Source of the DNA: Halomicronema sp. CCY15110
GTDB lineage: Bacteria; Cyanobacteriota; Cyanobacteriia; Phormidesmidales; Phormidesmidaceae
DNA length: 35,505 nucleotides
NCBI RefSeq assembly: GCF_016888165.1
Contig: NZ_JACSWC010000206.1
Location: 1 to 35,505 of the forward strand
Direction: 5' to 3'
How positions within the stretch are numbered: position 1 is the first letter of the stretch; the number at the start of each line of letters is the position of its first letter. The notes beneath the pieces were generated by a model. The model saw only the letters and a program-made list of their open reading frames with translations. It ran no database searches and was not told the origin of the DNA. Positions 10,864-21,071 of the stretch are shown here, one piece after another. The translations under genes were made by a program, and so were the position numbers.

Positions 10864-12381
10864 ATGAGTTTCCAAGATGAGCTCCTGTTGTTATTGCGGG
10901 CGCGATATCCCGTTATTTACATCGCCACTCTAGAGGAAGAGCGCGTGGAGCAGGCGATCGCCGCCAGCACACAGCAACTCAACCATCGCAGCGTCTATAT
11001 CTGGGACTTTGTCGATGGCTATCAGGGCAATCCAAACGACGCTGGGGTGGCCCGTCGTAATCCTTTACAGGCGCTAGAACACATTGAAAAGTTGCCGGAA
11101 TCAGCGGCAGCGCTTTTTGTGTTGCGAGACTACCATCGCTTCCTCGAAGATGTCGCCATTTCTCGCAAGTTGCGCAACCTGGCTCGACGGTTAAAGTCGC
11201 AAGCGAAAAATATCTTGCTGCTAGCACCACAAGTCCAGATTCCTGATGATCTGGCCGAAATAGTGACCGTTTTAGAGTTTGCCCTGCCCAGTGTGGAAGA
11301 CATTCATGCCGAAGTGACCCGGTTGCTGGGCAGTCTCAATGTGCAGCTTTCTCTGGCTGATTTAGACGCCCTGGTGCAGTCTTGTCAGGGGCTTTCGATC
11401 GAGCGCATTCGGCGGGTGCTGGCTCGTGGCATTGCCGCCCACGGCACCTTTCGCCCTGACGACATTGAGCTGGTGTTGGAGGAAAAGCGTCAGACCATTC
11501 GCCAAACCCAAATTCTGGATTTTTACCCTGCCAAGGAACAAATTTCTGAAATTGGCGGTTTGGATAATCTTAAGGATTGGCTACTGCGACGCGGCAACTC
11601 GTTTTCCGAAAAAGCGCGGCAGTATGGGTTGCCCTATCCTCGGGGACTGCTGCTAGTGGGCATTCAAGGGACGGGCAAATCGTTGACCGCTAAGGCGATC
11701 GCCCATCACTGGCATTTGCCCCTATTGCGGCTCGATGTGGGTCGCTTATTCGCTGGCCTCATCGGGGAATCTGAGTCGCGCACTCGCCAGATGATTCAAC
11801 TCTCCGAAGCACTGGCCCCTTGCATTTTATGGATTGATGAAATCGACAAAGCGTTTGCTGGAGTGGATGGTCGGGGCGATTCGGGGACGAGCAGCCGCGT
11901 TTTTGGCACTTTCATCACTTGGATGGCGGAGAAAACGTCGCCAGTTTTTGTGGTCGCAACGGCCAATAATATTCAATCGCTGCCGCCAGAACTCTTGCGC
12001 CGGGGTCGCTTTGACGAGATTTTCTTTGTCGGTTTGCCCACCCAAGAAGAACGCAAAGCAATTTACGAAGTTCACCTGAGTCGTCTCCGGGCTCATAATC
12101 TCCAGAGTTATGACCTGGAACGGTTGGCCTACGAAACTCCCAATTTCTCCGGTGCGGAGATTGAGCAGGCGCTCGTGGAGGCGATGCACATCGGCTTTAG
12201 TCAGGATCGGGACTTCACCACGGAAGACATTTTGGAGGCGGCGAGTCAAATTGTTCCCTTAGCCCGCACGGCTCAGGAACAGGTAGATGCCCTGCAAGCC
12301 TGGGCGGCATCGGGAAAAGCTAGACTGGCGTCGCGGAGTTCTTTGAGCGATCGCCTCAAACAGCGGCTGGGGCCAGATTAA
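10864..12381 (+). CDS. ycf46: Ycf46-type AAA+ ATPase
   Basis: The 505-residue protein matches the Ycf46 family of cyanobacteria and algal plastids. The N-terminal half (about 1-220, starting MSFQDELLLLLRARYPVIYI) is the family-specific region. The C-terminal half is an AAA+ module with Walker A GIQGTGKS (about residues 267-274), Walker B CILWIDEID (about 320-328) and the arginine-finger segment ELLRRGRFDEIF. Ycf46 has been associated with the regulation of photosynthesis and CO2 use in cyanobacteria; its exact biochemistry is not visible here. It is the last gene of the plus-strand cluster and converges with the Uma2 gene. Confidence 0.92.
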   Translation: MSFQDELLLLLRARYPVIYIATLEEERVEQAIAASTQQLNHRSVYIWDFVDGYQGNPNDAGVARRNPLQALEHIEKLPESAAALFVLRDYHRFLEDVAISRKLRNLARRLKSQAKNILLLAPQVQIPDDLAEIVTVLEFALPSVEDIHAEVTRLLGSLNVQLSLADLDALVQSCQGLSIERIRRVLARGIAAHGTFRPDDIELVLEEKRQTIRQTQILDFYPAKEQISEIGGLDNLKDWLLRRGNSFSEKARQYGLPYPRGLLLVGIQGTGKSLTAKAIAHHWHLPLLRLDVGRLFAGLIGESESRTRQMIQLSEALAPCILWIDEIDKAFAGVDGRGDSGTSSRVFGTFITWMAEKTSPVFVVATANNIQSLPPELLRRGRFDEIFFVGLPTQEERKAIYEVHLSRLRAHNLQSYDLERLAYETPNFSGAEIEQALVEAMHIGFSQDRDFTTEDILEAASQIVPLARTAQEQVDALQAWAASGKARLASRSSLSDRLKQRLGPD

Positions 12382-18141: not shown

Positions 18142-18429
18142 AACTTACACTTTCCACCGACGGCTTGTCTGAGGGGCAATGTAGGAGAATTGCGATCGCT
18201 GCGAACCGTATGCTGGTGGCGCTCATGGTGACAATTTCGCAAGAAACCCTTAATGGATGTGCCCCCACCGACATTTTTGGGATTTATATGGATAAAGCAT
18301 CCGCTAGCATTTTTATCGGCAACTGCCATCAGTTGATCTAAGGGACTGGACGCTGAATGCGCGATCGCTATGGTCGCTCCGCCCAGCGGTCGGTTCTATC
18401 AGGGAACGTTTCGGAAACTCATCTGCCAT

Positions 18430-20406
18430 ATGTCTTCACCTCAAAATCTGCTTGGGGGGCGTTATCAATTCATCCAAGCGTTAAACACCCATCCGTCGGG
18501 CCGGACCTTCCTCGCGGCAGATGTGCATTATCCGGGCCATCCCAAATGCGTGGTGCGAGAACTCCGCCTGCCGACCCGTAACCCAATGACGCGGCAGTTC
18601 ATTTTGCGGCTGCTCAAGCAGAAGGTCGCCATGTTGGAAGAAATCGGCCAGCATCCCCAAGTGCCCGATACCTCTGCCGCGTTTGACGTTGATCAGAGCT
18701 TTTTTATCGTTCAGGAATTCATCCCTGGGCAGTCGCTATTAGATTTACTGGCGGCGGCTGAGCCCTGGACGGTGCCTGAGGCGATCGCCTTTCTCCAAGA
18801 GGTGCTGCCAGTACTGCACTTTGCCCAAGACCACGGAGTCATCCATGGCAACCTCAAGCCCTCTAAATTGATTCGCCATCATTCCGAAAACAAGTGGATC
18901 ATCCTAGATTTTGGCTCGATTAAAAATATTAGTCAGCATATTGCGGGCAAACAAAAAGGCCAAAACGGCAACGACGACAATGGCTGGCAGCGGAGTTCGT
19001 CAGTGTATGTCGCCCCGGAGCAGTATCAACAACAAACATTATTTTGCAGTGACCACTATGCTCTCGGCATGATCGTGATTCAGGCAATGACGGGGCGCGA
19101 CCCGAGGGAGTTGCCCCAAGTGCAGGCCCCTAACCGGCATGAACAATTGACGGCGGTGTTGCGCGGTGTGCCCAAAATGCCCCCAGTGTTTGCCAACTTG
19201 CTGATGCGCATGGTGCATGCGCACCCCCAGCGACGCTATCAAAAAGCGGCCGACATCTTGAACGATTTAGAAGACCTGCTAGACGCATCGGATACCTTAG
19301 CCATGCCCACCGAGGATGCCGCAGCTACCCCCTCAACACCGCGCTCGGTGGCCACCGAGGTCACTGAGCCGCCGCCAGTGCGATCGCGACGGGCTTGGCG
19401 GAACCCCGTGCTAGGGACGTTGGGCGTGGTCACGCTAGTCGGTCTGGCGGTGGTATTCGGACTCAAGCTGCCCCAACGCTTGGCGGCCCAAAGGCACATT
19501 ACCCAAGCAGAAGCGATCGCCGCCGCAGAGCCAGAAGCGGCGATCGCCGCCTACTCCCAAGCCTTAGAACAGGTACCCCAGCAGCCCGAGGCCCTGGCGG
19601 CCCGAAGTCAGCTCTATTTTGAACTGGGAGAGGCCCAAGCGGCCCTGGCAGATATTTCAGAGGCCATTGACCAGGCTCCTGACAATCCTGATTACAACTA
19701 CAGTCGCGGCAACTTTCGGTTTACTTTGGGCGACATTCAAGGCGCGATTAACGACTATACCCAGGCCATTGAGCTTGATCCAACGTTCACCAAAGCGTAT
19801 GTCAATCGAGGCAGCGCTCGGGCTGATTGGGGCGATGATCGGGGGGCGATCGATGATTACACCCAAGCGATTGAGCTCGCGACTGATACCGATACGGAGG
19901 CCGCCGCCTATCTCAATCGGTGTCTGTCCTATTCCAACTTAGACGAGCAAGAGTTAGCACTGAATGACTGTTCCACCGCCATTAACCAGCGTCCCAGCCA
20001 TGCGCTGGCGTATCAAAATCGCGGGCTGGTGCGGCGGCGCTTGGGCGATTTGCAAGGCTCCTTGCAGGATTACAACATCGCCATCCAAATCGACCCCAAT
20101 AGCCCTGACCCGTTTTATAACCGGGCGCTGACTCGGCAGGCTTTGAATGATCGCCCCGGCGCGATGGACGATTTAAGCCAGGCGATCGCGATCGATCCCA
20201 CCTACGTCTTTGCCCGCTACGATCGCGCCTTGCTGCATATTGCAATGAACAACACGCCAGCCGCTTTACAAGACCTGCGAGCCGCCTCGCAGTTGTGCCT
20301 CGACTTGGGCCGCACCGGCTGTTACGAAGATGCCCAATTCCAAATTACCCAACTGCAAAACACGACGGACACCGAGCCAGCACCCGGCCTGGGACCAGAG
20401 GAATAG
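18430..20406 (+). CDS. Predicted kinase-fold (likely pseudokinase) membrane protein with TPR repeats
   Basis: The 658-residue protein has an N-terminal protein-kinase fold (about 10-280), a single membrane helix (about 326-346) and about eight tetratricopeptide repeats to the C-terminus. The kinase fold is recognisable from GGRYQFIQAL, 'VYVAPEQYQ', 'YALGMIVIQAMTGRDP' and DFG at about 160-162. Key residues differ from active enzymes: the ATP-binding VxK Lys is Arg (CVVREL), the HRD motif is HGN (139-141), so the catalytic Asp is Asn, and the KPxN Asn is Lys. The Gly-rich loop is also poor. Annotation as an active Ser/Thr kinase would be doubtful. The ATG at 18430 (MSSPQNLLGG) is preferred over one 60 bases upstream because the fold starts here; neither has a strong ribosome-binding site. 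Confidence 0.85.
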   Translation: MSSPQNLLGGRYQFIQALNTHPSGRTFLAADVHYPGHPKCVVRELRLPTRNPMTRQFILRLLKQKVAMLEEIGQHPQVPDTSAAFDVDQSFFIVQEFIPGQSLLDLLAAAEPWTVPEAIAFLQEVLPVLHFAQDHGVIHGNLKPSKLIRHHSENKWIILDFGSIKNISQHIAGKQKGQNGNDDNGWQRSSSVYVAPEQYQQQTLFCSDHYALGMIVIQAMTGRDPRELPQVQAPNRHEQLTAVLRGVPKMPPVFANLLMRMVHAHPQRRYQKAADILNDLEDLLDASDTLAMPTEDAAATPSTPRSVATEVTEPPPVRSRRAWRNPVLGTLGVVTLVGLAVVFGLKLPQRLAAQRHITQAEAIAAAEPEAAIAAYSQALEQVPQQPEALAARSQLYFELGEAQAALADISEAIDQAPDNPDYNYSRGNFRFTLGDIQGAINDYTQAIELDPTFTKAYVNRGSARADWGDDRGAIDDYTQAIELATDTDTEAAAYLNRCLSYSNLDEQELALNDCSTAINQRPSHALAYQNRGLVRRRLGDLQGSLQDYNIAIQIDPNSPDPFYNRALTRQALNDRPGAMDDLSQAIAIDPTYVFARYDRALLHIAMNNTPAALQDLRAASQLCLDLGRTGCYEDAQFQITQLQNTTDTEPAPGLGPEE

Positions 20407-20465
20407 CCCTTAAGCGGCGGCGCAATCGATAAGATAGTGAAACTGTTACTCTGTGCTTGCCTGTT

Positions 20466-21071
20466 ATGGTTGCCGTCTCTGCTGCCCAGCCCCGCATCCA
20501 GTTGTTGCAAACGCCCACCGCGCCAGCTTGGGTCGAGCAGGCGATCGCCCACCTCGATACCGTGTTGCTCGATCATTCCCACTGCGAACGCAAAGCCGCT
20601 GGGGTCGCGTTGAACTTGATGTGTCGGTATCCCTCCAGCGAAAAGCTCGTGCGGGCATTGACCGCGATCGCCCAGGAAGAACTCAGCCATTTTGAACTGG
20701 TGAACCAATGGCTGGAACGGCGTCAGGTGTCCCTGCGACCCCTGCCCGCGCCGCCCTACGGCACTGGTCTCAGTAAACAGATCCGCCGCGAAGAGCCGGG
20801 ACGCATGTTGGACTCGCTGCTCGTGGCGGCGCTGATCGAAGCCCGCAGCCACGAGCGGTTGGGGCTGCTGGCGGCCCACTGCCCCGAGCCAGAATTGGCC
20901 CAATTTTATCGCAATCTGATGGCCTCAGAAGCCCGCCACTACGGGGCCTACTGGGTGCTCGCCACCACCTACTTTGATCGCGAAACGGTCAATGCGCGAT
21001 TAGCTGAACTGTCAGCCGTGGAAAGTACATTACTCTTGACCCTGCACCCAGAGCCGCGCGTACATAGTTGA
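20466..21071 (+). CDS. miaE: tRNA-(ms[2]io[6]A)-hydroxylase
   Basis: The 201-residue protein is MiaE, a diiron, ferritin-like monooxygenase that hydroxylates the isopentenyl side chain of the modified adenosine at tRNA position 37. The four-helix ligand set is visible: DHSHCERKAA, AQEELSHFELV, LIEARSHERLG and ASEARHYGAYW. The domain starts at 'QLLQTPTAPAWVEQAI', and the length fits the family. ATG at 20466 is preferred; a TTG 9 bases earlier is also in frame, and neither has a clear ribosome-binding site. The gene begins 59 bases after the TPR kinase-like gene and converges with the DUF2062 gene. Confidence 0.93.
   Translation: MVAVSAAQPRIQLLQTPTAPAWVEQAIAHLDTVLLDHSHCERKAAGVALNLMCRYPSSEKLVRALTAIAQEELSHFELVNQWLERRQVSLRPLPAPPYGTGLSKQIRREEPGRMLDSLLVAALIEARSHERLGLLAAHCPEPELAQFYRNLMASEARHYGAYWVLATTYFDRETVNARLAELSAVESTLLLTLHPEPRVHS

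Follow-up and report, generated by a model that had tools for sequence, protein, structure and literature searches.

A conserved membrane pseudokinase with tetratricopeptide repeats in Halomicronema, probably the solo representative of a cyanobacterial kinase–pseudokinase family

Introduction

The stretch of DNA under investigation (35,505 nucleotides of Halomicronema sp. CCY15110, hereafter the window) harbors a gene, located at 18430..20406 on the forward strand, whose product joins a kinase-like domain, a membrane helix and a series of tetratricopeptide repeats (TPRs). It had been proposed, from the sequence, that this kinase fold has lost its catalytic residues. The question is whether the protein is indeed a conserved pseudokinase and, if so, which role it might play. 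The case of SpkE, which was reported to lack the HRD Asp and was first described as inactive and later as active (PMC2176072, PMC11863333), is a caution against inferring inactivity from sequence.

Kinase-like sequences without the catalytic Asp have been counted before, in a work that also points to TPR-containing kinases of Nostoc and Gloeobacter and, in the portions of its text considered here, does not name the genes described below (PMC1262709). A review of 2025 lists the bacterial pseudokinase families ActPs1-3, GLW, CP1, DYD and DLHK, which share with the window protein a Hanks-fold domain, degraded motifs and, in some cases, a link to the membrane, CP1 being present in cyanobacteria; the words TPR, tetratricopeptide and tandem are absent from its main text (PMC12599244).

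Structure of the Gene and of the Encoded Protein

The longest open reading frame spans 18370-20406 (+) and encodes a product of 678 aa, in which the codon at 18430, an ATG, specifies residue 21. Translation from the in-frame ATG at 18370 would lengthen the protein by 20 residues of poor conservation, and since clear similarity to the homologues begins only near 18430, the upstream part being hardly conserved, 18430 is considered the likelier start. The resulting protein is 658 aa long, and residues are numbered from this codon.

The kinase-like domain (residues 8-285; 18451..19284, +) lies N-terminal to the membrane helix. It matches the Pfam family PF00069 (Pkinase) with 61.7 bits, the cut-off being 31.7, as well as the solved bacterial Ser/Thr kinase 4eqm (phmmer, E 1.5e-13 across residues 8-284), and a profile of the clade described below matches StkP with an E value of 1.5e-32; thus, the sequence profiles (Pfam, 4eqm and StkP) recognize a Hanks-type kinase fold over the full length of the domain. 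The AlphaFold model, obtained from a two-sequence alignment, has a mean pLDDT of 60, with good TPRs and a kinase half of low pLDDT, and given that the latter is poorly folded in the model, the assignment of the kinase fold rests on the profiles. A fast-evolving, proline-rich linker (19285..19407, +) leads to a single transmembrane helix (about residues 327-345; 19408..19464, +), which is the one region exceeding 1.6 on the Kyte-Doolittle scale (2.41) and corresponds to the one membrane helix originally proposed. The C-terminal half, probably extracytoplasmic (residues 346-647; 19465..20370, +), gives strong matches to Pfam TPR families and is modeled, with high pLDDT over most of its length, as eight helix pairs plus a capping helix, so that the earlier estimate of about eight TPRs holds. 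Apart from kinase and TPR, Pfam finds in the protein only weak repeat families. The protein thus differs from CP1, which carries COG3899 and has no membrane segments (PMC12599244), in having one transmembrane helix and no COG3899.

Catalytic Residues of the Window Protein and of Its Relatives

The β3, αC, HRD and KPxN positions were assigned by alignment to solved bacterial kinases (StkP and 4eqm/9ymt). On this basis, and in agreement with the original prediction, the β3 Lys is replaced by Arg43 (CVVREL; 18556..18558, +), the HRD Asp by Asn141 (the HGN of HGNLKPSK; 18850..18852, +) and the KPxN Asn by Lys146 (same motif; 18865..18867, +), and the landmarks DFG (residues 160-162; 18907..18915, +) and APE (APEQ, residues 195-197; 19012..19020, +) are kept. 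Two losses had been overlooked, i.e., that of the αC Glu, replaced by Lys65 (LLKQKV; 18622..18624, +), and the degradation of the glycine loop (LNTHPSGRT, residues 18-26; 18481..18507, +). The window protein, with N141, R43, K65 and K146, does not have the residues expected of an active Hanks-type Ser/Thr kinase; it retains the Lys of HxxLKP alongside the DFG Asp. A sequencing error is ruled out by genome G001, in whose homologue these four positions likewise read Arg, Lys, Asn and Lys, and the occurrence of close homologues in 14 further genomes excludes chance or error.

The losses were then counted in the 27 pseudokinases of the clade (15 solo and 12 lying in tandem with an intact kinase) and in 40 comparison kinases. 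The HRD Asp and the αC Glu are both missing in all 27 members and in none of the comparison kinases, which consist of 15 sister kinases and 25 near hits and hence are not a random sample, and which all keep the HRD Asp, αC Glu, β3 Lys, KPxN Asn and DFG Asp. The αC Glu is replaced by Lys in 21 members and by Asn in six, the change to Lys being present in all five families concerned; the HRD Asp position is occupied, in different members, by N, H, E, R, T, S or K, with no conserved substitute. Since these two losses are common to all 27 proteins, they are probably the oldest ones. If a pseudokinase is defined by the loss, conserved in orthologues, of the VAIK Lys, the HRD Asp or the DFG Asp, the Asp of HRD is missing in 27/27 members, the Lys in 18/27 and the Asp of DFG in 6/27.

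The expectation that orthologues would share the three losses first noticed stands in full for the Asp and in part for the others, the clade alignment showing the Lys missing in only 18/27 members and the KPxN Asn in only 15/27. The β3 Lys and the KPxN Asn are missing together in the genus of the window and in G012 (7/15 solo members), and are missing in 11/12 and 8/12 tandem pseudokinases, respectively; both are retained by the other eight solo members, and the DFG Asp by 14/15. In the solo members that keep these residues, nucleotide binding or a weak activity may be possible. Orthologues with an intact HRD, which would have spoken against the reading as a pseudokinase, were sought, and none was found among the 27 members; together with the αC Glu loss and the contrast with the comparison kinases, this strengthens that reading.

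Distribution and Organization of Pseudokinase and Sister Kinase Genes

A search of 95 genomes disclosed a close homologue in 13 further genomes, all belonging to the family of the window, in which the gene is carried by 14 of 57 genomes (including the window's own) and six of 14 genera. Another 386 genomes were drawn from the phylum, at least 15 of which have a pseudokinase of the clade, and they added a close homologue in G291, a member of another family; among viral contigs, no relative was confirmed.

Among the loci of less similar hits, those of G074 and G211 were the first to show a pseudokinase of this kind placed directly upstream of an intact kinase that shares its architecture. Further searches brought such tandem pairs to 12 genomes of three families (G074, G090 and G217; G306; G211, G183, G427, G127, G409, G281, G273 and G394). 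In all 12, the two genes lie on the same strand, with the pseudokinase upstream and the intact sister second; according to which start codon is chosen, the gap between them measures 19 to 607 bases. The sisters show the same kinase–membrane helix–TPR plan, the helix being weak in those of G074 and G090. The G+C content of the G394 locus is 33%; that of Trichodesmium is similarly low. As a separate observation, in 11 of the 15 intact sisters (L082, L122-L127, L131, L132, L084 and L067) the Lys of the catalytic loop is replaced by Asn (HRDVNPSN), which is unusual.

The two genes are not strictly tied to each other, since each of them occurs without the other next door. A sister kinase without an adjoining pseudokinase is found in G239 and G331 (in G338, the contig of the sister stops about 1.1 kb upstream, so that adjacency cannot be read), and 12 of the 27 pseudokinases lack an adjoining sister, three more ending at a contig edge. 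In the window, the neighbors are MATE and MiaE. Profile searches of 14 loci disclosed no sister around the solo genes, the window itself having MiaE downstream; this excludes adjacency in 12 of the 15 solo loci, those of G002, G008 and G031 reaching a contig edge within the gene or shortly downstream of it. In the trees, the hit most like a sister in every one of the 15 solo genomes is placed among other kinases. A lower-scoring sister may be located elsewhere in the draft genomes of the solo members; the G306 sister, for example, is absent among the matches at E 1e-92. In G291, a giant kinase-like open reading frame adjoins the gene on the opposite strand and gives a weak match (57 bits). No adjoining member of the pseudokinase clade was found in 20 loci around the next-best sister-like kinases (f22, f30 and others), although two of these kinases, from G239 and G183, score marginally higher with the sister profile than with that of other kinases. 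Also in G239, the open reading frame L186:1-1509, a weak kinase match with the loop HGNLQPRNIL, is possibly an unrelated pseudokinase.

The short gene for MiaE, a tRNA hydroxylase (20457-21071), starts about 50 bases downstream on the same strand and follows the pseudokinase gene in five of the six genomes of the genus (G000, G001, G003, G004 and G005), the contig of G002 ending first. A conserved neighborhood outside the genus was rejected: 14 other genes of the window were tested, and not one was found there beside the solo gene (tblastn, E 1e-15). Two further features of these loci are a second, partial MiaE-like match in G001 (L070:16803-17078, 70% identity over 92 aa), about 4 kb past the intact one, and, in G005 (L071:2241-3756), a counterpart of the window gene 10864-12381 in two pieces and different frames, possibly as a result of a frameshift. 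A match to the PD-T4-6 phage-defence kinase (PADLOC) was discarded as a generic kinase match, scoring 177 bits versus 304 for an intact kinase of the same genome and 310 for a sister kinase.

Phylogenetic Analysis

The sequences under study formed a set of 67 rows, in which L053, being the same contig as L036 of G008, was counted once, and the contig-cut L030 was excluded from the TPR counts; L039, L042, L044, L046-L049, L110 and L112-L121, all with an intact HRD, and 16 further kinase hits from the window's own genome were kept outside. The kinase-domain tree separates the pseudokinases (support 100/96), the intact sisters (99/90) and both together from other kinases (100/99). The same splits were recovered after the removal of 26 catalytic columns (92/92, 91/89 and 100/98) and after the addition of eight more rows (100/95, 99/88 and 100/99), which are kinases with an intact HRD that entered only the enlarged tree. 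When the kinase hits of the window's own genome were scored against profiles, 20 of the 22 gave a score: the window gene scored best with the pseudokinase profile, as did, weakly, L002 and L004, and 17 scored best with the "other" profile, whose scores, here as in the profile searches around the solo genes and the next-best sister-like kinases, lean toward "other" as the 25 "other" rows also trained it; L021 and L022 gave no score.

The TPR half tells a different story. The TPR tree groups each pseudokinase with its sister by lineage (98/89 for f31 and 91/89 for f19) and a single pseudokinase clade is rejected there (p 0.0007), which is what would be expected if separate tandem duplications had made the pseudokinases several times, convergence joining them in the kinase-domain tree. 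The kinase domain itself is compatible with f19 pseudokinases and sisters as one clade (p 0.31), but rejects the corresponding clade for f31 (p 0.0023), and the αC Glu to Lys change recurs in all five families. The conflict could also be accounted for by exchange between the TPR parts of neighboring genes or by misaligned repeats, each of the three being a possible cause by itself, and repeated origins are considered rather unlikely. A homogenization of the TPR halves, hinted at by the TPR tree and by the cysteine states described below, is not claimed, as comparisons anchored at the C-terminus, with identities of 38-53% inside one genome and a mean of 42.9% between pseudokinases of different lineages, neither set it apart nor favor one of the three causes.

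Selective Constraints

In the kinase domain, dN/dS is 0.072 between G000 and G001 (dS 0.69) and 0.055 between G002 and G003 (dS 0.16), the value of an intact kinase of G000/G001 being 0.038 for comparison. The TPR part also has a low dN/dS, and the linker, over the 70 codons measured, reaches 0.28 and 0.14 in the same two pairs. Among the tandem copies, three comparisons within f31 gave 0.24-0.29 for the pseudokinase domain and 0.12-0.14 for the sister; in G074/G090, the two are alike (0.02-0.03). Hence, the gene is constrained, and the kinase half of the f31 tandem copies is looser than that of the sister. The low ratios rule out a pseudogene, and no homologue match has an internal stop. Elsewhere, three kinase matches with internal stops (G042:C533:2301-3104, G185:C2:29200-30033 and G425:C1:4348112-4348930) are apparent pseudogenes.

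Cysteines and Membrane Topology

Two putative disulfides can be proposed from the cysteine states and the modeled helices, where each pair of cysteines sits in adjacent helices: Cys498/Cys514 (19921..19971, +) would link both helices of TPR 5, and Cys623/Cys631 (20296..20322, +) would link TPR 8 to the cap helix. Among 41 aligned proteins, which are related and thus not independent cases (a 42nd is cut by a contig end), the former pair is complete in 35 and absent in six, and the latter complete in 22 and absent in 19, with no half state for either. Pseudokinase and sister of one genome agree in the state of the pairs in 12/12 genomes, and the number of cysteines is even in 41/41 TPR halves and in 19/41 kinase halves. 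All-or-none pairs and even numbers point to disulfides, and so to an oxidizing compartment. The net charges flanking the membrane helix are similar (+4/+3), so that the topology rests mainly on the cysteines, which make an extracytoplasmic, disulfide-bonded TPR half probable. In G306 (L128), the TPR half of both proteins has six cysteines versus four in the window protein, perhaps forming a third disulfide.

Discussion

The window gene encodes a conserved, real pseudokinase, which is best regarded as one of the solo members of a cyanobacterial kinase–pseudokinase family. The presence of its counterpart beside an intact sister in related lineages suggests that it regulates signaling rather than phosphorylating substrates, and a role as a membrane sensor or scaffold is plausible from its domain layout. 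The favored interpretation, to which we assign a probability of roughly 0.55, is that of a non-catalytic co-receptor modulating an active kinase. The residue losses, the clade, the tandem arrangement in other lineages, the selection and the paired cysteines are observed, and from them we infer the lack of activity, the topology, the disulfide bonds, the partner and the sense in which it is regulated. The protein would be a single-pass membrane pseudokinase whose cytoplasmic Hanks fold would be incapable of canonical phosphotransfer and whose TPR half, placed in the periplasm or thylakoid lumen and held by two disulfides, would sense or dock a partner. The family might have originated as one half of a kinase–pseudokinase pair, in which the dead copy would pair with an active Hanks kinase, or compete for its site, and the binding of a ligand by the TPR halves would let the dead copy alter the activity of the live one. 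Since the sister was not found in the family of the window, the partner there would have to be a different kinase or some protein that is not a kinase: most likely, the pseudokinase would regulate one of the other kinase-like proteins of the cell, of which there are roughly 20, or serve as a membrane scaffold. It is tempting to go further and to propose, with a confidence falling somewhat short of even, a cyanobacterial transmembrane co-receptor pair, encoded by adjoining live and dead genes that share an origin, with disulfide-bonded TPR ectodomains that match and kinase halves that have diverged, of which the window's family lost the live partner and kept the dead one, which shed more active-site residues and became independent.

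Other explanations start from the same observations. The kinase fold might be a pure protein-binding platform of a membrane scaffold with no tie to an active kinase, as suggested by the missing sister in the window's family, by neighbors that are not found beside the gene outside the genus, and by EssB/YukC, a pseudokinase of the membrane that acts as a scaffold (PMC12599244); we regard this as unlikely, given that purifying selection holds the kinase fold and that, with the exception of G291, the nearest homologues in other families adjoin an intact sister in 12 genomes. A cryptic enzyme, with a rearranged active site or another ATP-dependent transfer like those of SelO/SidJ, would find a precedent in SpkE (PMC2176072, PMC11863333) and in bacterial pseudokinases with alternative chemistries (PMC12599244), and it would make use of the retained DFG Asp and HxxLKP Lys. 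However, the window protein has lost the catalytic Asp, the β3 Lys, the αC Glu and the KPxN Asn and has a degraded glycine loop, and no substitute at the catalytic Asp position is conserved across members, which makes such an enzyme quite improbable. Finally, the additional residues missing in the genus and in G012, the presence of the gene in just 14/57 genomes of the family and the fast-evolving linker could be read as signs of a non-functional relic heading for loss, a reading that is largely refuted by the low dN/dS of the kinase and TPR parts, and that the lack of internal stops, the conserved cysteine pairs and the occurrence in six genera make highly improbable.

It is useful to compare the co-receptor interpretation with known systems. 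In the eukaryotic pair ROP5/ROP18, a dead paralogue controls an active kinase, which is also the working model here, and STRAD/LKB1 is a further eukaryotic pair in which a dead partner controls an active kinase. These are not systems homologous to the present one, for which we infer a partnership only from gene order and phylogeny. Among bacteria, MviN is a membrane protein. Both MviN and the transmembrane EssB/YukC resemble the window protein in being pseudokinases with non-catalytic roles, and differ from it in that the review, as far as it treats them, describes no TPR ectodomain or adjoining sister kinase gene (PMC12599244).

As for the pair itself, a survey of cyanobacterial kinases lists Tery_4781 and Tery_4782 of Trichodesmium erythraeum, with 11 and 10 TPRs, respectively (Zhang et al. 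2007, PMC2176072). The consecutive locus tags, the combination of kinase and TPRs in both, and the non-canonical motifs of Tery_4781 make them very probably a tandem pair of the present family, matched by description and not by sequence. The survey differs in treating Tery_4781 as a kinase, one of nine proteins whose deviating motifs were deemed tolerable and which were still counted as putative Ser/Thr kinases, and the portions of its text considered here do not discuss the two as a pair (PMC2176072). A literature search covering few subscription papers found no description of the pair as a kinase with a pseudokinase.

A probable member of the family has thus already been counted as a kinase (PMC2176072), and since the window protein itself passes the Pfam kinase cut-off, databases would probably label all members as Ser/Thr kinases. 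With the live copy adjoining the dead one in 12 genomes, the dead one seen alone in 12 and the live one alone in two, the family offers natural comparisons for the effect of a dead kinase on its live twin, and for whether the dead copy outlives that twin.
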